Part shown: piece after piece, positions 12,093-45,973 of the stretch
Layout: each line of letters begins with the position of its first letter
How positions within the stretch are numbered: the stretch's first letter is position 1
NCBI RefSeq assembly: GCF_000473105.1
Contig: NZ_KI421498.1
Span: forward strand, 1,550,001 to 1,614,000
From: Phaeobacter inhibens DSM 16374
GTDB taxonomy: Bacteria; Pseudomonadota; Alphaproteobacteria; Rhodobacterales; Rhodobacteraceae
Reading direction: 5' to 3'
DNA length: 64,000 nucleotides
Notes under the pieces: model-generated
What the model was told of the DNA's origin: nothing
Database searches by the model: none
Seen by the model: the letters and a program-made list of their open reading frames with translations, nothing else
Made by a program: the position numbers and the translations under genes

Positions 12093-13163
12093 TCAGGCCA
12101 TACCGCCGCGGATCAGCCCTTCGGCCATTTGGGCGTAGGCCTGCGCCATGGCGCTGTCGCCCGCTGCAATGGGTGTACCACTGTCGCCGGCCAGTCGGGT
12201 ATCCAGATCAATCGGCAGCGCGCCAAGAAGTGGAACGCCAAGACGCTCGGCCTCGGCGGCAACCCCGCCATGGCCAAAGATGTGGTGCTCTCCGCCACAA
12301 TCCGGACAGGTGAAGAACGACATATTCTCAATCAGACCCAGCACCGGTGTCTTTAGCGTATTGAACATGTCGAGCGCCTTGCGTGCATCCAACAGCGCCA
12401 CATCCTGCGGCGTGGAGACAACGATGGCACCGGACAGCTCCGCCTTGGTGCAGAGGGTCAGCTGCACATCGCCGGTGCCGGGCGGCAGATCGACGATCAG
12501 CACGTCCAGTTCGCCCCAGTTCACCTGACCCAGCATCTGCTGCAACGCGCCCATCAGCATCGGCCCGCGCCAGACCACGGCCTTGGCCTCATCCACCATG
12601 AAGCCGATGGACATCAAGGTGACGCCATGGGCGTGCAGCGGTTCAATGATTTTGCCATCCGGGCTGGCGGGGCGGCCACTAGCCCCCATCATGCGTGGCT
12701 GGCTGGGTCCATATATGTCAGCGTCCAGCAGGCCCACCTTGCGGCCCTGACGCGTCAGGGCCACGGCGAGATTGGCGCTGACGGTGGATTTGCCGACCCC
12801 ACCCTTGCCCGAGCCAATTGCCAGGATGCGTTTGACGCCGCTGGGCTTCATCGGGCCTTGTTGTGGTTTTGGGTGACCGCCCAGTTTCAGGGTCGGCGCA
12901 GGTTTGGCGACCGCATCGGCATGTGCGGTCAACGCGGCGGAGACACTCTCTACACCCGGCAAGGCCAGAACAGTTGCCTCAGCCGCGCGGCGCAGCGGCT
13001 CCATCTGGGCCGCGATATGCGGATTGGGGGCCTCGATCACGAAACTGACGCGCCCGCCATCAACCATCACCGCGCGCAGCATGTCACGCGAAACCAGCGT
13101 GCCGCCATCGGGCAGCTGCAGCCGCGCAAGGGCGTCGCGAATCTCTTCCTGGGTGGGGGTCAT
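12093..13163 (-). CDS. mrp: Mrp/NBP35-family iron-sulfur carrier ATPase
   Basis: Mrp (ApbC) proteins carry and deliver Fe-S clusters in the cytoplasm. The 356-residue protein has an N-terminal MIP18-like (DUF59) domain (1-85), a linker rich in Pro and Lys, the deviant P-loop GKGGVGKS (119-126), the switch motif [14 protein letters not shown], and the cluster-binding pair CPDC (286-289). The ATG at 13163 follows a GAGGAG and gives the usual length; an upstream in-frame start would add a spurious hydrophobic tail. It is a single gene with a hairpin downstream. Confidence 0.95.
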
Positions 13164-13395
13164 GGCCGGTCTCCTCATGGTTTCCAGCCATATAAGACCT
13201 ACCGCGACCAAGCCCAAGGCCACATTGCGCTGTCAGGCAGAGCCGATTCCGAAAGATGCCATGGCGCGCCGGTTCATTCCTCGCCCGGTTTTTCAGCGCC
13301 CACCCCCTCCATGATGCATAACTCAGCAGGATCAACCCCGTTTCCCTTAGGAAACCCATGCATTTGCTGCATAGCAGAAATGCCCCTTTCAGGGA

Positions 13396-13424
13396 TTGTG
13401 CGCATGCAGCATTATCATATTTAT
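13396..13424 (+). promoter_or_regulatory. Candidate promoter of the DUF1127/CcsR locus
   Basis: TTGTGC at 13396-13401 is followed, after 15 to 17 bases, by the AT-rich ATATTTAT (13417-13424). This lies about 60 bp upstream of the DUF1127 start. In R. sphaeroides the equivalent locus is read by the alternative sigma factors RpoHI and RpoHII; the hexamers here cannot by themselves say which sigma factor is used. Confidence 0.35.
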
Positions 13425-13482: not shown

Positions 13483-13701
13483 ATGGCCGCTGTTGATAAT
13501 ATGACAACCCGTAAAGGCGCTTTGGCCTTCAGCCCGCGCGCAGTGTTTGACGAACTGAAAGGCAAGATTGCACGCTACCGCCTGTACCGCCAGACCATGA
13601 ATGAGCTGTCGACGCTCTCTGGTCGCGAGCTGGCGGATCTGGGGCTGAGCCGCTCCATGCTGCGTAGCGTTGCCTATGAGGCCGCCTACGGTACGAAATA
13701 A
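13483..13701 (+). CDS. ccaF1: DUF1127 small protein, CcaF1-like
   Basis: This basic 72-residue protein has the DUF1127 core (YRQTMNELSTLSGRELADLG, about 29-48), a short helix-turn-helix-like fold seen in small RNA-linked proteins of alphaproteobacteria. AAGGAC is upstream of the ATG. It is followed, after a few bases, by four CCUCCUCCC hairpins. That exact arrangement is known in Rhodobacter sphaeroides, where the DUF1127 protein CcaF1 (formerly RSP_6037) is co-transcribed with the sRNAs CcsR1-4 and acts as an RNA-binding protein under stress. The symbol is assigned from this gene order. Confidence 0.85.
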   Translation: MAAVDNMTTRKGALAFSPRAVFDELKGKIARYRLYRQTMNELSTLSGRELADLGLSRSMLRSVAYEAAYGTK

Positions 13702-13707
13702 AGAGTT

Positions 13708-13740
13708 CAGGCTCTCTTCTCCTCCTCCCTTGAGGGCCTG
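13708..13740 (+). ncRNA. ccsR1: CcsR-type sRNA, copy 1
   Basis: CAGGCTCTC (13708-13716) pairs with GAGGGCCTG (13732-13740) through nine pairs including one G-U. The loop carries CTCCTCCTCCC, the anti-Shine-Dalgarno-like motif of CcsR RNAs. It starts six bases after the DUF1127 stop, so it would be cut from the same transcript. Confidence 0.8.
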
Positions 13741-13745
13741 CAATC

Positions 13746-13779
13746 GCGGTGACATCCTCCTCCTCCCTGATGTCACCGC
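13746..13779 (+). ncRNA. ccsR2: CcsR-type sRNA, copy 2
   Basis: A perfect 11-bp stem joins GCGGTGACATC (13746-13756) and GATGTCACCGC (13769-13779). The 12-base loop is CTCCTCCTCCCT. The stem sequence differs completely from the other copies while the loop is kept, which means selection acts on loop sequence and on pairing. Confidence 0.85.
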
Positions 13780-13811
13780 ACCCTATACCGGCGTCATAGC
13801 CGGACCCTGAT

Positions 13812-13845
13812 ACACCTTGCCTTCTCCTCCCTTTTGGCCGGGTGT
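13812..13845 (+). ncRNA. ccsR3: CcsR-type sRNA, copy 3
   Basis: ACACCTTGCC (13812-13821) pairs with GGCCGGGTGT (13836-13845) with one mismatch and one G-U. The loop TTCTCCTCCCTTTT has the shortest CCUCC tract of the four. This is the most degenerate member of the array. Confidence 0.75.
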
Positions 13846-13853
13846 TGTACAGA

Positions 13854-13892
13854 ACGGCGGTGCCCTCCTCCTCCCTGGCACCGCCGTTTTTT
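13854..13892 (+). ncRNA. ccsR4: CcsR-type sRNA, copy 4, also the terminator of the array
   Basis: A perfect 11-bp stem joins ACGGCGGTGCC (13854-13864) and GGCACCGCCGT (13877-13887), with the loop CTCCTCCTCCCT and a run of six T at 13887-13892. The last hairpin therefore also works as an intrinsic terminator for the DUF1127-CcsR transcript. Confidence 0.87.
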
Positions 13893-18502: not shown

Positions 18503-19080
18503 GGCCGCGGCGCGGGGCTCAGGATGCGGGCCATCGCGTCGCCCATGCCCGCCAGCCAGCCAGCCAGTTTCCACCACGCAAGCCCTTCCGCGCGGATCCC
18601 GCTATCTGGCCCCTGCCACCAAGGTCCCGCAATCAGGGGCCCGCGCCCCAGGCGCTACCGTCCAGCGTCCGCCGCGCCTGTGCCACCGCCCTGCTCCCGA
18701 GGCACAAACGCTCTATGGAGTTACACTCCAGCAGCGGGCAGAGATTAACGGTGGCCTGAAGCCCCCCGGGGCAAAGGGGCCGCCTGTAACACTCTGACAG
18801 CTTCCTTGCGCAGGCCAACCTCGACGCCCGCGAGTACACACTCCGGCACGCCCCCACCGTCCCGGCCAGCCCAGCCCAGCCCGACACTTGCTGCGCGCGA
18901 ACGGTTTCACAAATACGAATGCCGGGAGGAAGGTGACAGCGGACCCGAATGGATGCGCGGTCGCATGGCATAGCACAGCCGCATGGAACGGAACCGCGCG
19001 GAACAGGCCCGGCACGAATAGTTACAAAATTGTTTCAAACCTGCACTCGGCACTAGACTTTTGCTGCAAGGCAGCAACAA
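18503..19080. other. Non-coding stretch before the hydroxy-acid dehydrogenase
   Basis: I see no supported gene in these 578 bases. The stretch is GC-rich and has short simple repeats, such as CCAG repeated four times near 18551-18570 and AGCCC repeats near 18865-18885. The last 60 bases are more AT-rich and are the likely promoter region of the next gene. Confidence 0.5.
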
Positions 19081-20286
19081 ATGCGCAACATGGATTTGCA
19101 CCAGCGTTATCCCGCTCTCAGTGACCTTCGCCAGCGCGCCCGGCGGCGCCTGCCGCGTTTCGTTTGGGAGTATCTGGACAGCGGCACCGGAACCGAGGCG
19201 ACCAAGGCCCGCAACCGTGCTGCGCTGGATCAACTGGGGTTTACCCCATCCATCCTGCATGGCCCGCAGACGCCGGATCTGAGCCGTCGCTTTCTGGGCA
19301 TTGACCGCCCGCTGCCCTTTGGTGTCGCGCCGGTTGGCATGTCCGGGCTGATCTGGCCGGATGCGGAACGGCTGCTCGCGCGCTGCGCTGCGGCACAGGG
19401 CCTGCCTTATTGCCTGTCCACCGTGGCCAGCCAGTCGCCCGAGGATCTGGCAGGTGATCTGGGGGCTGCGCCGTGGTTCCAGCTCTACCCGCCGAAGGAT
19501 CCAGACATGCGCCGCGATCTGCTGGCGCGCGCCAAAGCCGCCGGCTTTGCCGGGCTGGTGTTGACCGTGGATGTGCCTGTAGCCTCGCGCCGCGAGCGGC
19601 AAACGCGATCAGGTCTGACCCAGCCGCCGCGGCTGACACCCCGGCTGCTGGCACAGGTCGCCATGCGACCTGCCTGGGCGATGGGCATGGCGCGGCGTGG
19701 CCTGCCCCATATGCGGACGCTGGACAAATATGTTACCGGCCAGAGCGGCAGCCTATCGTCAACGGCACACGTCGGCTATCTGCTGCGCACCTCGCCAGAT
19801 TGGGACTATGTGAAGTGGTTGCGGGACCATTGGGATGGCCCGCTGATCATCAAGGGGGTGATGCGCGCCGAAGATTCAGCGCCGCTGGAGGCAATCGGTG
19901 CCGATGCGCTCTGGGTCTCTAACCATGCTGGGCGCCAGTTTGACGCTGCACCCTCCACGATCGAGGCTTTGCCGGGAATTCGCGCCGCCACCCGGTTGCC
20001 GCTGATTTTCGACAGCGGGATCGAGAGTGGGCTTGATATTCTGCGCGCACTGGCGCTGGGTGCGGACTATGTGATGCTGGGCCGCGCGTTCCATTTTGCG
20101 CTTGCCGCACTTGGATCGCGGGGGCCGGATCATTTGGTGGATATCCTGCGCAAGGATCTGGACGCCAATATGGGGCAACTGGGCCTTGAGACGCTATCCG
20201 CCCTGCCCCGGCCGCTGGGACTTGCGTCGTTTGCCAACCCGTTCACGACAGATAGGTCCGATACGGACATAAATGCACCGCCATAA
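19081..20286 (+). CDS. FMN-dependent alpha-hydroxy-acid dehydrogenase (L-lactate dehydrogenase type)
   Basis: This TIM-barrel flavoenzyme family oxidises L-2-hydroxy acids to keto acids. The 401-residue protein keeps the active-site residues: Tyr in FVWEYLDSGTG, Tyr in FQLYPPKD, Asp and Arg in LTVDVPVASRRER, Lys in IIKGVM and His/Arg in SNHAGRQFD, where the family usually has SNHGGRQ. FMN-binding DSGIESGLDILRALALGA follows. The start at 19081 has AAGG eight bases upstream; a second ATG is at 19090. LldD-type L-lactate or related substrates are most likely, since the next gene is pyruvate carboxylase, which could use the pyruvate formed (inference). Confidence 0.9.
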   Translation: MRNMDLHQRYPALSDLRQRARRRLPRFVWEYLDSGTGTEATKARNRAALDQLGFTPSILHGPQTPDLSRRFLGIDRPLPFGVAPVGMSGLIWPDAERLLARCAAAQGLPYCLSTVASQSPEDLAGDLGAAPWFQLYPPKDPDMRRDLLARAKAAGFAGLVLTVDVPVASRRERQTRSGLTQPPRLTPRLLAQVAMRPAWAMGMARRGLPHMRTLDKYVTGQSGSLSSTAHVGYLLRTSPDWDYVKWLRDHWDGPLIIKGVMRAEDSAPLEAIGADALWVSNHAGRQFDAAPSTIEALPGIRAATRLPLIFDSGIESGLDILRALALGADYVMLGRAFHFALAALGSRGPDHLVDILRKDLDANMGQLGLETLSALPRPLGLASFANPFTTDRSDTDINAPP

Positions 20287-20412
20287 ATGCGAATTTTGCC
20301 GGTTTCTGGCCTCAGGTCAGCGCTATCACGCTGGCCATACCCAGAACTACGTCTATACCGGACCCTAATTTGCGCTTATCACTTCGCCAAACTGCACGAC
20401 CCCGAGGACGCC

Positions 20413-23400
20413 ATGACCGACTTCAAGAAAATCCTGATCGCCAACCGCGGCGAGATCGCCATCCGCGTCATGCGGGCAGCCAATGAGATGGGCAAGAAGA
20501 CGGTGGCCGTCTATGCCGAAGAGGACAAGCTGGGCCTGCACCGGTTCAAGGCGGATGAAGCCTACCGGATCGGCGAAGGCATGGGGCCGGTTGCGGCCTA
20601 TCTGTCGATTGACGAAATCATCCGCGTCGCCAAGGAATGCGGCGCCGATGCGATCCACCCCGGCTATGGCCTGCTGTCGGAGAACCCGGATTTTGTGGAT
20701 GCCTGCGCGCGCAACGGCATCACCTTCATCGGGCCAAAGGCGGAAACCATGCGCGCCCTTGGCGACAAGGCAAGCGCCCGCCGCGTCGCGATCGAGGCCG
20801 ATGTGCCAGTGATCCCGGCCACCGAAGTTTTGGGCAACGATATGGACGCGATCCGCAAGGAAGCGGCCGAGGTCGGCTATCCCTTGATGCTGAAGGCGTC
20901 CTGGGGTGGTGGTGGTCGTGGCATGCGCCCGATCCACAGCGAAGATGAGCTGGAAGAGAAAGTGCTGGAAGGCCGCCGCGAAGCCGAAGCCGCCTTTGGC
21001 AATGGCGAGGGCTATCTGGAGAAGATGATCACCCGCGCCCGCCACGTTGAGGTGCAGATCCTCGGCGACAAGCATGGTGAAATCTACCACCTTTATGAGC
21101 GGGACTGCTCGGTCCAGCGCCGCAATCAGAAGGTGGTTGAGCGTGCGCCCGCCCCCTATCTGACCGAGGAACAACGCACCGAGATCTGCGATCTGGGCCG
21201 CAAGATCTGCCAGCATGTGAACTATGAATGCGCGGGCACCGTCGAATTCCTGATGGATATGAACGACGGCAAATTCTATTTCATCGAGGTGAACCCCCGC
21301 GTTCAGGTGGAACATACCGTCACCGAGGAAGTCACCGGCATCGATATCGTGCAGGCGCAGATCCTGATTGCCGAAGGTAAGACCATTGCCGAGGCCACTG
21401 GCAAGGCGTCGCAGGACGAGATCCAGCTCAATGGTCATGCGCTACAGACCCGGGTGACCACTGAGGACCCGCTCAACAACTTCATCCCTGACTACGGCCG
21501 CATCACCGCCTATCGCTCGGCCACAGGTATGGGCATTCGTCTGGACGGCGGCACAGCCTATGCCGGCGGCGTGATCACACGCTATTACGATTCATTGCTG
21601 ACCAAGGTCACCGCCAAGGCGCCAACACCGGAAAAAGCCATTGCCCGCATGGACCGCGCCTTGCGTGAATTCCGGGTGCGCGGTGTCAGCACCAATATCG
21701 CCTTTGTCGAGAACCTGCTGAAGCACCCGACCTTTCTGTCGAATGAATACACCACCAAATTCATCGACGAGACGCCGGAGCTGTTCCAGTTTGCCAAGCG
21801 TCGCGACCGCGGCACCAAGGTGCTGACCTATATCGCCGATATTTCGGTCAACGGGCATCCCGAAACCGAAGGCCGCGCTGCGCCCCATGCCGATCTGAAA
21901 GAGCCGCGCGCGCCAAAGGCCGATGCCGCGACGCAACCCTACGGCACCCGCAACCTGTTGGAGCAAAAGGGCGCGCAGGCGGTGGCCGACTGGATGAAGG
22001 CACAGCGCCAACTGCTGCTGACTGATACCACCATGCGCGATGGTCACCAGTCGCTGCTGGCCACCCGGATGCGCAGCCATGATATGATCAAGGTGGCGCC
22101 GGCCTATGCCCAGAACCTCAGCCAGCTGTTCTCGGTTGAGTGCTGGGGTGGTGCGACATTTGATGTGGCCTATCGCTTCTTGCAGGAATGCCCCTGGCAA
22201 CGTCTGCGCGACCTGCGCGAGCGGATGCCGAACCTGATGACCCAGATGCTGCTGCGCGCCTCAAACGGGGTTGGCTACACCAACTATCCCGACAATGTGG
22301 TGCAGAGCTTTGTGAAGCAGGCCGCCACCGGCGTTGATGTGTTCCGCGTCTTTGACTCGCTGAACTGGGTTGAAAACATGCGTGTTGCGATGGATGCAGT
22401 CGTCGAGAGCGGCAAGATCTGCGAAGGCACCATTTGCTACACCGGCGATATCCTCGATCCCAACCGGGCCAAATACGACCTCAAATATTATGTCGGCATG
22501 GCCAAGGAGCTGGAAGCCGCAGGCGCGCATATCCTGGGCCTGAAAGACATGGCGGGCCTGTTGAAGCCTGCCGCTGCCCGCCAGCTGGTCAAGGCGCTGA
22601 AAGAAGAAGTCGGCCTGCCGGTCCATTTCCACACCCATGATACCTCTGGTGTGGCCGGCGCCACCATTCTGGCAGCAGCGGACGCGGGTGTAGATGCTGT
22701 GGATGCAGCTATGGATGCCTTCAGTGGCGGCACCTCGCAGCCCTGCCTTGGCTCCATCGTCGAAGCGCTGCGCAACACCGACCGCGACACCGGCATCGAC
22801 ATCGCCGCGGTGCGCGAAATCTCCGGTTATTGGGAGCAGGTGCGGGCCCATTATGTGGCCTTCGAAAGCGGTCTCGCCGCGCCTGCGTCCGAGGTTTATC
22901 TGCATGAGATGCCCGGCGGCCAGTTTACCAACCTCAAGGCACAGGCCCGGTCGCTGGGTCTGGAAGAGAAATGGTCCGACGTGGCGCAGACCTATGCCGA
23001 CGTGAACCAGATGTTCGGCGACATCGTGAAGGTCACGCCGTCGTCCAAGGTGGTTGGCGATATGGCACTGATGATGGTGTCCCAAGGGCTGACCCGTGAC
23101 GATGTCGAGGATCCGAAGAGTGATGTGGCCTTCCCCGACTCGGTGGTCGACATGATGCGTGGCAATCTGGGCCAGCCTCCGGGCGGCTTCCCCGAGGGGA
23201 TCGTGTCCAAGGTGCTGAAAGGCGATGCCCCCAATCTGGAACGCCCCGGTGCCCATCTCGCCCCCGTGGATCTGGAAGCGACCCGCGCCGAACTCTCCAA
23301 GGAGCTGGAAGGCAAAGAGGTCGATGACGAGGATCTGAACGGCTACCTGATGTATCCCAAGGTCTTCCTCGACTACATGGGCCGCCATCGCCAATATGGC

Positions 23401-23853
23401 CCGGTCCGCAGCCTGCCCACCCGCACCTTCTTCTACGGGATGGAACCGGGCGAGGAGATCACCGCCGAAATCGACCCCGGCAAGACGCTGGAAATCCGCC
23501 TGCAGGCCATCGGCGACACCGATGACAAGGGGGAGGTCAAAGTTTTCTTTGAACTGAACGGCCAGCCACGGGTGATCCGGGTGCCGAACCGTTTGGTCAA
23601 GGCCACCACCCAGGCCAACCCCAAGGCCGAGCAGGGCAACCCCAACCACATCGGCGCGCCGATGCCGGGTGTTGTGGCCTCCGTTGCGGTGCAGGTCGGT
23701 CAGCCAGTGCATGAGGGCGATATGCTGCTGACCATCGAGGCGATGAAGATGGAGACCGGCATCCACGCCGAACGCGATGCCGTGGTGAAAGCCGTGCATG
23801 TCCAACCCGGTGGTCAGATCGACGCCAAGGATCTGCTGATCGAACTGGAGTGA
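20413..23853 (+). CDS. pyc: Pyruvate carboxylase
   Basis: This biotin enzyme carboxylates pyruvate to oxaloacetate and refills the citric acid cycle. The single 1146-residue chain has all domains in order: biotin carboxylase with ATP-grasp (about 1-450; KILIANRGEIAIR at the start), carboxyltransferase (about 530-800; TDTTMRDGHQSLLATR and the metal-site HFHTHD), a linker, and the C-terminal biotin carrier with the attachment motif EAMKM (biotinyl lysine near 1112). The ATG at 20413, preceded by GAGGAC, gives the usual length and discards a 42-residue in-frame extension. It depends on biotin, whose full operon lies 20 kb away. A strong terminator follows. Confidence 0.98.
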   Translation: MTDFKKILIANRGEIAIRVMRAANEMGKKTVAVYAEEDKLGLHRFKADEAYRIGEGMGPVAAYLSIDEIIRVAKECGADAIHPGYGLLSENPDFVDACARNGITFIGPKAETMRALGDKASARRVAIEADVPVIPATEVLGNDMDAIRKEAAEVGYPLMLKASWGGGGRGMRPIHSEDELEEKVLEGRREAEAAFGNGEGYLEKMITRARHVEVQILGDKHGEIYHLYERDCSVQRRNQKVVERAPAPYLTEEQRTEICDLGRKICQHVNYECAGTVEFLMDMNDGKFYFIEVNPRVQVEHTVTEEVTGIDIVQAQILIAEGKTIAEATGKASQDEIQLNGHALQTRVTTEDPLNNFIPDYGRITAYRSATGMGIRLDGGTAYAGGVITRYYDSLLTKVTAKAPTPEKAIARMDRALREFRVRGVSTNIAFVENLLKHPTFLSNEYTTKFIDETPELFQFAKRRDRGTKVLTYIADISVNGHPETEGRAAPHADLKEPRAPKADAATQPYGTRNLLEQKGAQAVADWMKAQRQLLLTDTTMRDGHQSLLATRMRSHDMIKVAPAYAQNLSQLFSVECWGGATFDVAYRFLQECPWQRLRDLRERMPNLMTQMLLRASNGVGYTNYPDNVVQSFVKQAATGVDVFRVFDSLNWVENMRVAMDAVVESGKICEGTICYTGDILDPNRAKYDLKYYVGMAKELEAAGAHILGLKDMAGLLKPAAARQLVKALKEEVGLPVHFHTHDTSGVAGATILAAADAGVDAVDAAMDAFSGGTSQPCLGSIVEALRNTDRDTGIDIAAVREISGYWEQVRAHYVAFESGLAAPASEVYLHEMPGGQFTNLKAQARSLGLEEKWSDVAQTYADVNQMFGDIVKVTPSSKVVGDMALMMVSQGLTRDDVEDPKSDVAFPDSVVDMMRGNLGQPPGGFPEGIVSKVLKGDAPNLERPGAHLAPVDLEATRAELSKELEGKEVDDEDLNGYLMYPKVFLDYMGRHRQYGPVRSLPTRTFFYGMEPGEEITAEIDPGKTLEIRLQAIGDTDDKGEVKVFFELNGQPRVIRVPNRLVKATTQANPKAEQGNPNHIGAPMPGVVASVAVQVGQPVHEGDMLLTIEAMKMETGIHAERDAVVKAVHVQPGGQIDAKDLLIELE

Positions 23854-43418: not shown

Positions 43419-44554
43419 GGCCTTGTCTCCATTTCCCGGGCGAGGTTTTCGAACATCCGGGTGATGACCTGTGCCCCCGTGTTCAACGTGATCGACAGCC
43501 GCAGCCGCGAGGTGCCGCGGGGCACCGTTGGCGGGCGGATGCCGCGGATGTCATAGCCGTAGCCTTGCATCGCTGCTGCCAGCGCCATGGTGCGTTTGTC
43601 GTCACCGATCACCACCGGCAGGATCTGGCTGTGATAGCCGTCCAACCCGCAGAGGCGTTTGGCCTCTGCTTGCGCATGGGTGATCCCCTGCCACGCCTGT
43701 TCGCGGCAGCCCGTGTTCTGTTGCAGCTCAGCCAGGGCTGCCCGTACCAGTGCGGCGTTCAGCGGTGACGGGGCGGTGGCAAAGATGAACCCGCGCGCCT
43801 TGTTGATCAGTGTCTCGATCAGTACCCGCTGACCGCAGATCAGCGCGCCAGAGGCCCCCAGCGCCTTGCCGCAGGTGTGCAGGGACAGGACGTTGGGACG
43901 GTGCGCGATTTCATGCGCCAGCCCGCGGCCCAGATCGCCAAACACGCCTGTGGAATGCGCCTCATCCACCACCAACACCGTGCCGTCCGCATCCGCAAGC
44001 GCCATCAATGCATCCAGCGGGGCCAGGTCGCCGTCCATCGAATAGACCGCCTCAACCGCGATCCAGACCTGGCCTATGCCGCCCTCGGCACGCCAAGCCT
44101 TCAGCACCCGCGAAGCGTCTTCCACGTCGCCATGGGCAAAACTGCGGGTTTCTGCCCGGCCCAGCCGCATCCCGTCATGGGTGCTGGCATGGATCAGCGC
44201 ATCATAGAGCACCAGATCGCCCTGCTGCGGCAGAGTGGAAAAGATTGCTTGATTGGCAGTGAAGCCGCCGCCCATGAACAGCGCCGCCTCGGTGCCGAAA
44301 AACGCGGCCGCTTCCGCCTCCAGCAACTGATGTTCTGCGTCATTGCCGCGCAGCAGGCGCGAACCGCCTGCGCCCACCGGCACCCCGCGCGCCAGCGCAT
44401 CGGCGGCAGCGGTGCGCAGCACATCGCTGCCCGCCAGCCCCAGATAGTCGTTGGAAGCAAAATCATGCCCGTCCCGTGGCATCAGCTGCCGGTAGCGTCC
44501 GCGCGTGCGCAGCGCGTCCAGCGATGTTTCATGCCTCGGGAAGGCGCCCGCCAT
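43415..44554 (-). CDS. bioF: 8-amino-7-oxononanoate synthase
   Basis: BioF condenses pimeloyl thioester with L-alanine. The 379-residue PLP enzyme of the alpha-oxoamine synthase family has SNDYLGLAG (34-42), GAGGSRLLRGN, VVDEAHSTGVFG and the PLP lysine near residue 230 in HTCGKALGASG. Its ATG overlaps the bioB stop by one base (TGATG). Confidence 0.97.
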   Translation of the reverse strand: MAGAFPRHETSLDALRTRGRYRQLMPRDGHDFASNDYLGLAGSDVLRTAAADALARGVPVGAGGSRLLRGNDAEHQLLEAEAAAFFGTEAALFMGGGFTANQAIFSTLPQQGDLVLYDALIHASTHDGMRLGRAETRSFAHGDVEDASRVLKAWRAEGGIGQVWIAVEAVYSMDGDLAPLDALMALADADGTVLVVDEAHSTGVFGDLGRGLAHEIAHRPNVLSLHTCGKALGASGALICGQRVLIETLINKARGFIFATAPSPLNAALVRAALAELQQNTGCREQAWQGITHAQAEAKRLCGLDGYHSQILPVVIGDDKRTMALAAAMQGYGYDIRGIRPPTVPRGTSRLRLSITLNTGAQVITRMFENLAREMETRP

Positions 44555-45531
44555 CAGCGGCTGCCGTCACATCCCACCGCCATCGCGGTGATGCCCAGAC
44601 GGTCGAACAGCTGCTGGTCCTTGTCCTCTTCGGGGTTGTCGGCGGTCAGCAGCGTGTCACCGACAAAGATCGAGTTGGCACCGGCAAAGAAGCACATCGC
44701 CTGCATCTCGTCCGACATATCGGTGCGGCCTGCGGACAGGCGCACGTGGGATTTCGGCATCAGGATGCGGGCCAGCGCCACCGAGCGGACAAATTCGATC
44801 GGATCCAGCTTCTCGACATTGGCCAGCGGCGTATCGGCAATCGGGATCAGCATGTTCACCGGCACCGAGTCGGGATGCACCTCCAGCGTTGCCAGCGCCA
44901 GCATCATGTCGATGCGGTCCAGCTGCTGCTCACCCATGCCGACAATACCGCCGGAACAGACTTTGATGCCCGCCTCGCGCACCCGGTTCAGGGTGTCGAT
45001 CCGGTCGGCAAAGGTGCGGGTGGTGATGATCTCGGAGTAATACCGCTCGGAGGTGTCGATATTGTGGTTGTAATAATCCAACCCCGCATCGCGCAGACGG
45101 AACACCTGGTCTTCCTCCAGCATGCCCAAGGTCATGCAGGTCTCCATGCCGAGATCCTTGACGCCCTGCACCATGGCTTCCAGTGCGGCCATGTCGCGGT
45201 CCTTGGGCGAGCGCCAGGCAGCCCCCATGCAATAGCGCGTCGCGCCGCCTTCCTTGGCTTTCCTGGCTTCGGCAATCACCCGCTGCACCTCGATCAGCTT
45301 GGAGGCCGAGAGCTGCGCGCCGTTGCGGGCCGACTGCGAGCAATAGGCGCAATCCTCGGCGCAGCCGCCGGTCTTGATGCTGAGAAGCTTGGATTTCTGC
45401 ACCTGGTTCGGGTCGAAATACTGCCGGTGTACGGTGTGTGCCTGAAACAGCAGGTCCATGAAAGGCGTGTTGTAAATCGCTTCCGCTTCCTCGCGGGTCC
45501 AATCGGTGCGGATGGGTGCAGCGTCCAGCAT
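44554..45531 (-). CDS. bioB: Biotin synthase
   Basis: BioB inserts sulfur into dethiobiotin. The 325-residue radical SAM enzyme has the cluster motif CAEDCAYC (Cys57, Cys61, Cys64), [16 protein letters not shown] near the N terminus and the GGIVGMGE and [10 protein letters not shown] motifs. GGAG precedes the ATG at 45531. It is first in the operon bioB-F-D-A-G-C, behind a promoter covered by a BioR box. Confidence 0.97.
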
Positions 45532-45582
45532 GCTGTCTCCTGTTCTCTCTACCTGATGGCCATACGCGGATGGCGTTATTGT

Positions 45583-45612
45583 TTTATAGATAACTTGACG
45601 GGTCACGATCAA
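45583..45612 (-). promoter_or_regulatory. bioB promoter with BioR operator
   Basis: On the minus strand TTGATC (plus 45607-45612) and TATAAA (plus 45583-45588) are 18 bp apart and form a good promoter 50-80 bp before bioB. The sequence TTATAGATAA at 45584-45593 is an exact match to the BioR box TTATMKATAA of alphaproteobacteria and covers the -10, so BioR (GntR family, not in this window) should repress the operon when biotin is sufficient. Confidence 0.85.
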
Positions 45613-45745
45613 GCATAAAGCTGCAGTGCAGCGAATTCACTCCACCTCTGAACTATTATCAATTCATATTACTGTTATTTAACGATAATAATAATCTATA
45701 AAATAAGACATTGACGGGGAGACCATATCTCCCCTACCCCTAAAG

Positions 45746-45858
45746 CACGCAGGGGAGTCCCGCCAAGGGGACTGAGAGGCGTTTAGGTGCGGGACATTCC
45801 GGACCGGCGGCGCGACCCTTTGAACCTGACCCAGTTGATACTGGCGTAGGAAGCTAGG
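45746..45858 (+). promoter_or_regulatory. TPP riboswitch (THI element) of the thiamine operon
   Basis: The conserved parts are in order: GGGGAGTCC, then CTGAGAGG (about 45772-45779), then ACCCTTTGAACCTGA (about 45815-45829), CAGTTGATACTGGCGTAGGAA. This is the standard TPP aptamer. About 135 bases separate it from the thiC start, including a GC-rich imperfect hairpin around 45912-45935 (GGGGGTCGTACGCCCTC) that could be the expression platform. Confidence 0.95.
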
Positions 45859-45973
45859 CGCGCATGGCTGCGGGAATTGTACACTCCCTGACGTCTTGCG
45901 TTGACTGAACAAGGGGGTCGTACGCCCTCTGTTTCCCGAGCCAAACCTCATCTGGTGTCTTTTCCAAGTCTAG

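Follow-up and report, generated by a model that had tools for sequence, protein, structure and literature searches.

A ccaF1-CcsR type hairpin array in Rhodobacterales and a predicted promoter link to the storage regulator PhaR

A short DUF1127 gene followed by stem-loops with a shared CCUCC-type loop raises the question of whether it represents the ccaF1-CcsR1-4 locus of R. sphaeroides, how many small RNAs its hairpins stand for and what its promoter responds to. The locus lies in a 64-kb stretch of DNA, the whole of which was analysed and is called the window here (Table 1). It is very probably the orthologue of R. sphaeroides ccaF1-CcsR (CIN1) in identity and general working; the part played by PhaR, the regulator of polyhydroxybutyrate (PHB) storage, is a separate claim. 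The locus itself is already known, and the points made here are the hairpin pair as a unit, the spread in array size and the link of the promoter to PhaR.

Table 1. Positions in the window of the gene, promoter and hairpin features of the locus
Feature	Position	Strand	Basis
mrp/apbC-type NUBPL P-loop ATPase gene, divergent neighbour	12093..13163	-	Pfam ParA/NUBPL, 324 bits
Element A, CTGCATAGCAG, predicted PhaR operator	13367..13377	.	Published site; matrix score 19.5
Element B, ATTGTGCGCATGCAGCAT, -35 TTGTGC plus GCAGCAT half-site, conservation tracks PhaR	13395..13412	+	Alignments
Possible -10 ATATTT, RpoH-like spacing from TTG	13417..13422	+	Alignments; RpoH rules (PMC3441632, excerpt)
Probable ccaF1 orthologue, DUF1127 ORF, 72 aa, predicted small RNA-binding protein	13483..13701	+	PF06568
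CcsR unit 1, two hairpins	13704..13784	+	RF02791, 47.9 bits, E 1.8e-10, below gathering
Hairpin 1, loop CTCCTCCTCCC at 13719-13729	13708..13740	+	Folding, motif count, covariation
Hairpin 2, loop CTCCTCCTCCC at 13757-13767	13746..13779	+	Folding, motif count, covariation
Plain spacer hairpin between doublets, without loop motif	13788..13803	+	Folding; double-sided changes in 2 of 5 pairs
CcsR unit 2, two hairpins	13802..13892	+	RF02791, 36.5 bits, E 4.1e-7, below gathering
Hairpin 3, loop CTCCTCCC at 13824-13831	13812..13845	+	Folding, motif count, covariation
Hairpin 4, loop CTCCTCCTCCC at 13865-13875, plus U6 13887-13892 as intrinsic terminator	13851..13892	+	Folding, covariation

The DUF1127 gene and its hairpins

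The ORF at 13483-13701, which the initial annotation had named as a DUF1127 gene preceding the hairpins, scores 51 bits against PF06568 in the Pfam search (cut-off 23.3). A ccaF1-CcsR locus is expected to have a DUF1127 gene of ~71 aa directly upstream, and the present gene has 72. The divergent mrp neighbour marks orthologous loci. Its likely start (MTPTQEE) is at 13163, with the open frame reaching a GTG at 13223, and in a tblastn search 37 of 40 related loci are flanked by mrp, those of C. johrii and L. azotoformans among them. The window locus has mrp in its upstream flank, the orthologous position.

The loop motif CCUCCUCCC is present in three hairpins in the form CTCCTCCTCCC, as first described, and these are the only copies in the window when both strands are searched (shuffle mean 0.01). 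In hairpin 3 the loop is limited to TTCTCCTCCC, within the shorter CTCCTCCC; among the six other genomes of the genus this loop has the long form in four and the short form in two. The 8-mer CTCCTCCC alone is not rare, with four copies in the window and 2.3 expected. Hairpins 1-4 fold with the motif in the loop at -14.6, -19.2, -12.6 and -25.0 kcal/mol (z-scores -2.7, -6.6, -1.7 and -7.5), and the entire 196-nt region has a fold z of -8.0. Hairpin 3 is weak by itself, since 13 of 200 shuffles fold as well, and it has double-sided changes in three of its 14 pairs. The first hairpin begins 6 nt past the DUF1127 stop codon, and the last ends in six T (13887-13892), which bears out its earlier description as a hairpin that doubles as terminator.

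All seven genomes of the genus (the window's own and six others) have four hairpins, and an alignment of the seven supports the pairing through covariation. Paired cells make up 97.2% of it, against 93.6 when shuffled, and 10 of 51 pairs show double-sided changes, against 2.7 when shuffled and with none of 500 shuffles as high; versions of the alignment slid by 1-3 columns have 0-2 such pairs. The claim that the stems differ while they keep pairing is upheld by these 10 pairs, none of which lies in helix 2, where all seven genomes are invariant. The cuckoo/CIN1 pattern of a conserved loop motif on stems that change yet pair is found both in these pairs and in the 837 hairpins of related loci described below.

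The initial annotation counted exactly four stem-loops. That number is right for hairpins with a motif loop and leaves out a fifth, the plain GC hairpin at 13788-13803, which possibly marks processing borders. Similar plain inverted repeats between doublets were seen by eye in another locus (L061).

A second DUF1127 gene of the same genome (L309, G000:C6:3101800-3103600; also L084) has a single downstream hairpin with a CTCCTCCC loop (-20.3 kcal/mol). L026 in G002, a relative of the L309 locus, has two such hairpins.

The CcsR unit and the size of the array

Rfam at the gathering threshold gives four tRNAs and a TPP riboswitch as the sole matches in the whole window. The covariance-model search proposed with the initial annotation gave a mixed outcome: RF02791 (CcsR1) matches both doublets at a relaxed threshold, and neither match reaches the gathering score of 65.3. 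The model describes an 83-nt RNA with two hairpins, and RS0680a of R. sphaeroides likewise has two stem-loops with the motif in each (PMC3927594, excerpt). Since one CcsR RNA is two hairpins, the four motif hairpins of the window amount to two CcsR units. The spacing agrees with a two-hairpin unit, with 38 and 41 nt inside the doublets and 67 nt between them.

Eight hairpins and four CcsR1 matches each are found at the loci of C. johrii (L086) and L. azotoformans (L087); their DUF1127 proteins share 99% and 94% identity with the query protein from G133. The C. johrii units score 106.2, 46.6, 43.6 and 39.4 bits against RF02791, and in both species only the first of the four is over the gathering score (106.2 bits), with the rest at 39-54. 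Four CcsR equivalents in the window were considered and rejected, as its four hairpins and two matches are half of what C. johrii and L. azotoformans have; this comparison rests on two close relatives, the RF02791 model and the excerpt of PMC3927594, R. sphaeroides being absent among the 80 named matches listed. The supposed agreement with R. sphaeroides in copy number therefore fails, with two units in the window and four in the two named relatives, and since CcsR RNAs are hairpin pairs, the number of sRNAs differs from that of hairpins. Four units are not treated as defining, since array size varies widely in the family. The assignment to the ccaF1-CcsR type holds on the two RF02791 matches, the mrp flank and the shared promoter block.

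RF02791 matches at E<=0.001 in 271 of the 292 genomes of the order, nine of them over the cut-off, and in one of 14 control genomes (Thermus composti). The association of DUF1127 with CcsR-like RNAs is often found in alphaproteobacteria and has been named CIN1 (PMC10253847, excerpt). Given 271 matching genomes and a published arrangement, the locus cannot be presented as a second lineage, as had been proposed.

The loci compared numbered 114 from 113 genomes, with G013 counted twice (L010 and L024 are the same 8-hairpin array). After nine were dropped, 105 loci of 104 genomes with at least two hairpins beside a DUF1127 gene were retained. They have 2-24 hairpins, most commonly 8 (23 loci) or 4 (15 loci), and these sizes lean towards strong matches, since the loci are the best-scoring ones and not a random draw. 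Among the 80 named loci listed, 58 have at least two hairpins beside the gene, with 2 to 15 hairpins. The spacings in the 105 loci are bimodal (mainly 35-49 and 60-79), the hairpin number is even in 80, and the first loop lies 16-28 nt past the stop codon in most array loci. L231 (G189, 24 hairpins) and L062 (G133, 14 hairpins) contain near-identical tandem blocks, which point to recent tandem duplication, and L080 (G224) has 20 hairpins in a regular spacing pattern. The spread from 2 to 24 hairpins raises the question of whether dose or target range is under selection.

The hairpin search required a core of TTCCTCC or CTCCTCC, so the evidence for a fixed loop comes from the neighbouring bases. 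Across the 837 hairpins of the 105 loci, C opens the core in 832, directly follows it in 827 and directly precedes it in 794, and the stem positions hold little sequence information. A run of at least four U follows the last hairpin in 78 of the 105 loci and other hairpins in 12 of 732.

These data bear on two explanations that need no small RNAs. Chance or low-complexity CU tracts in a GC-rich genome would account for the short CTCCTCCC, which is common (2.3 expected per window), and would have to produce three 11-mers where 0.01 are expected, a fold z of -8.0, covariation and four hairpins in 7 of 7 genomes of the genus, so this explanation has practically no probability and was rejected. 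Of the two other copies of CTCCTCCTCCC in the genome (C1:278313, C6:3188646), both inside long open frames, one gives a poor fold (-8.9 kcal/mol, 17-nt loop) and the other none. The hairpins could also act only in cis, as 3' UTR stabilisers and the terminator of the DUF1127 mRNA; the start of the first hairpin 6 nt past the stop codon and the terminator in the last are what this would predict. It is nonetheless improbable, since a stabiliser would not require loop bases outside the searched core to be fixed on variable stems, U-runs are nearly confined to the last hairpin (78/105 against 12/732), and published accounts available in excerpt describe action in trans on mRNAs for related RNAs of R. 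sphaeroides and S. meliloti.

Promoter elements and the regulator PhaR

In 36 of 40 loci the start codon is preceded, at roughly -68 to -145, by a common promoter block that contains element A (TTGCTGCATGGCAGCATTG-like) and element B (ATTGTGCAnnTGCAGCAT). The TTG of element B fits the -35 rules for RpoHI/RpoHII (PMC3441632, excerpt). The -10 of C. johrii is CCATGT; the candidate -10 of the window is ATATTT and not CCATnT, though the -35 TTG is kept, and the promoter may belong to the RpoH class or to another sigma factor class. A second palindrome overlaps element A, with CATGC-N7-GCATA at 13357-13373 in the window and CATGC-N7-GCATG in many relatives.

The binding sequence of R. sphaeroides PhaR is 5'-CTGCNNNGCAG-3' (PMC12542648, excerpt), and this regulon motif is found in the promoter as CTGCATAGCAG at 13367-13377. 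The genome of the window has a PhaR gene with both Pfam domains. The 11-mer of element A is identical to a site in the same genome that has a PHB depolymerase gene (PF06850, 291 bits) on one side and phaC (PF07167, 251 bits) on the other, and two more PhaR sites precede a phasin-like gene (Phasin_2, 19.9 bits, under the cut-off) adjoining phaR. The exact palindrome occurs in 22 of 40 upstream regions, where 0.8 are expected and 200 draws gave at most 4; in C. johrii and L. azotoformans it is off by one base. The half-sites of element B are four bases apart, against three in the published PhaR site.

A PhaR matrix was built from the best-scoring 60 PhaR loci. One or more sites are present in 55 of them, and the 60 loci average 1.93 where 0.10 would be expected; 82 of 116 sites were kept by an AT-rich flank filter of the author's own, and the matrix was symmetrised. 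It places 84 of 100 CcsR promoters of PhaR-containing genomes above the 95th percentile of shuffles and the three PhaR-less ones below it. Promoters of G001 and G002 (the window's genus), the Cereibacter-like G325 and G133 also fall below that percentile, yet have element B. The best places for the matrix in the 64-kb window are 19059 (21.1), 13362 (19.5) and 45616 (17.1), and the next scores 7.6.

The first of these, 19059-19079 (TTTTGCTGCAAGGCAGCAACA), lies just before a lactate-dehydrogenase-like gene at 19081-20286 (below NCBIfam cut-offs), which is followed by a pyruvate carboxylase gene at 20287-23853 (1822 bits); this site suggests PhaR control of anaplerosis. The third, 45616-45636, is at the start of a gene on the minus strand (44554-45612) with radical SAM and BATS domains, which we take to be biotin-synthase-like, and is upstream of the TPP riboswitch at 45741-45869. 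Near 45616-45636 there is also TTATAGATAA, which presumably resembles a BioR box. Outside the order, TGCTGCAATGCAGCA-like palindromes lie upstream of three-hairpin DUF1127 loci in Phyllobacterium (Rhizobiales); L149 has CTGCN3GCAG exactly, and L154 and L158 each differ from it at one position. The link to PhaR may therefore not be confined to Rhodobacterales.

Genomes that lack PhaR allow the promoter elements to be compared with its presence. PF07879 (PhaR) is absent in G009 and G283 (2 of 54) and in G120 (1 of 60), and the 292-genome draw of the order gave G120 and G283 again (2 of 292). The fourth PhaR-less genome is G329, of genus g79, and all four are rated 99-100% complete. The comparison covers 103 loci, one per genome, whose upstream sequence was long enough; L010 and L231 were dropped. 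Element B has at most three mismatches in 96 of 100 PhaR-containing loci and 4-5 in the remaining four; the three PhaR-less loci have 6-7, where shuffles have 4-8. Element A has at most two mismatches in 62 of 100 and 5-7 in 16 of 100, with 6-7 in the three PhaR-less loci. It separates the two groups poorly and is noisier than element B.

Within genus g79, PhaR is present in four of seven genomes. All four keep element B at 1-2 mismatches and element A at 1-2, and the PhaR-less G283, G120 and G329 have 6-7 mismatches in B and 5-7 in A with ATTGTGC intact; G283 and G120 are counted in the 103-locus set as well. G009 keeps TTGTG and TATGC-N7-GCATA. Element B is thus kept with PhaR and lost without it (kept in 0 of 4 PhaR-less genomes), the pattern being weak for element A. 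Independent losses are few: the genomes without PhaR come from two genera and may reflect two events. In a tree of Mrp 7 of 10 inner branches stayed open, and it did not yield a number of loss events.

From these sequences PhaR probably controls the window locus. A different regulator, lost along with the PHB pathway, could bind elements A and B instead, or both could be mere parts of an RpoH-type promoter. Several observations fit this: conservation of the exact CTGCN3GCAG is incomplete (22 of 40), the half-site spacing of element B differs from that of the published site, and element A alone gives no clean split between genomes with and without PhaR. The overlapping CATGC-N7-GCATG also persists in the PhaR-less g79 genomes, so another factor may bind there as well. 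Such a reading is unlikely, with an appreciable probability still left to it, since genomes without PhaR have lost, among other parts, the match to the published site and the half-site GCAGCA, yet still have ATTGTGC (all three in g79) or TTGTG (G009). The same 11-mer precedes phaC in the window's genome, and a matrix learned from PhaR loci alone finds the site.

Proposed working and related systems

The gene, hairpins, terminator, orthology, promoter block and association with PhaR are read from the sequence; co-transcription, RNase E cutting, CcaF1 binding, stress induction and action on mRNAs are carried over from R. sphaeroides papers available in excerpt. The locus would be transcribed as one RNA that starts at the TTGTGC promoter, spans ccaF1 and the array and stops at the terminator (13887-13892). 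By analogy, RNase E and the CcaF1 protein would cut this transcript into the ccaF1 mRNA and the CcsR RNAs, and the two CCUCC-type loops of each CcsR may pair with G-rich ribosome-binding sites and block or destabilise the mRNAs. The promoter would also carry PhaR-dependent operator elements occupied by PhaR, which would couple output to PHB storage besides the stress sigma factors.

For the order as a whole, the balance leans towards ccaF1-CcsR being a member of the PhaR regulon across Rhodobacterales. PhaR, a PHB-sensing repressor, would act on elements A and B, with B over the -35, and release or tune an anti-Shine-Dalgarno array whose number of hairpins has expanded and shrunk (2-24) as an evolvable dose. 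The direction of its action, repression relieved by PHB, is a guess from the phasin genes. If true, a carbon-storage signal sets a broad damper on translation initiation; the prediction ties a storage-polymer regulator to a stress-induced sRNA cluster and an RNA-binding protein in a large bacterial order. No link of PhaR to CcsR or CcaF1 was recognised in the literature searched, a partial coverage without the main CcsR papers, and prior publication is possible. Among the papers listed, PMC10986841 contains both terms, and its title points to synthetic biology.

ccaF1-CcsR1-4 of R. sphaeroides, compared through C. johrii and L. azotoformans, is alike in its DUF1127 gene, tandem two-hairpin RNAs with CCUCC loops, mrp flank and promoter block. 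The Cereibacter-group loci have four units and eight hairpins, against two and four in the window; the first CcsR unit of the window scores lower in Rfam than theirs, and the -10 box differs. The CIN1/cuckoo family (Reinkensmeier and Giegerich 2015) likewise combines a short DUF1127 gene with neighbouring hairpins whose loop is conserved and whose stem is free (PMC10253847 and PMC4504443, excerpts). Its motif is described as 2-4 hairpins (PMC4504443, same excerpt), whereas the Rhodobacterales arrays have up to 24. The alpha-r14/NfeR1 sRNA of Sinorhizobium (RF02344) has the same loop motif and scores 45.8 bits over 13701-13808, under its gathering score of 58.8; unlike the window array, it has three hairpins and its own sigma-70 promoter (PMC7143759, excerpt). 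PhaR/AniA and MmgR of S. meliloti are similar in having a putative PhaR site at an sRNA promoter (PMC12542648, excerpt). MmgR is another sRNA, while the PhaR target in the window would be the CcsR array together with the gene for an RNA-binding protein.
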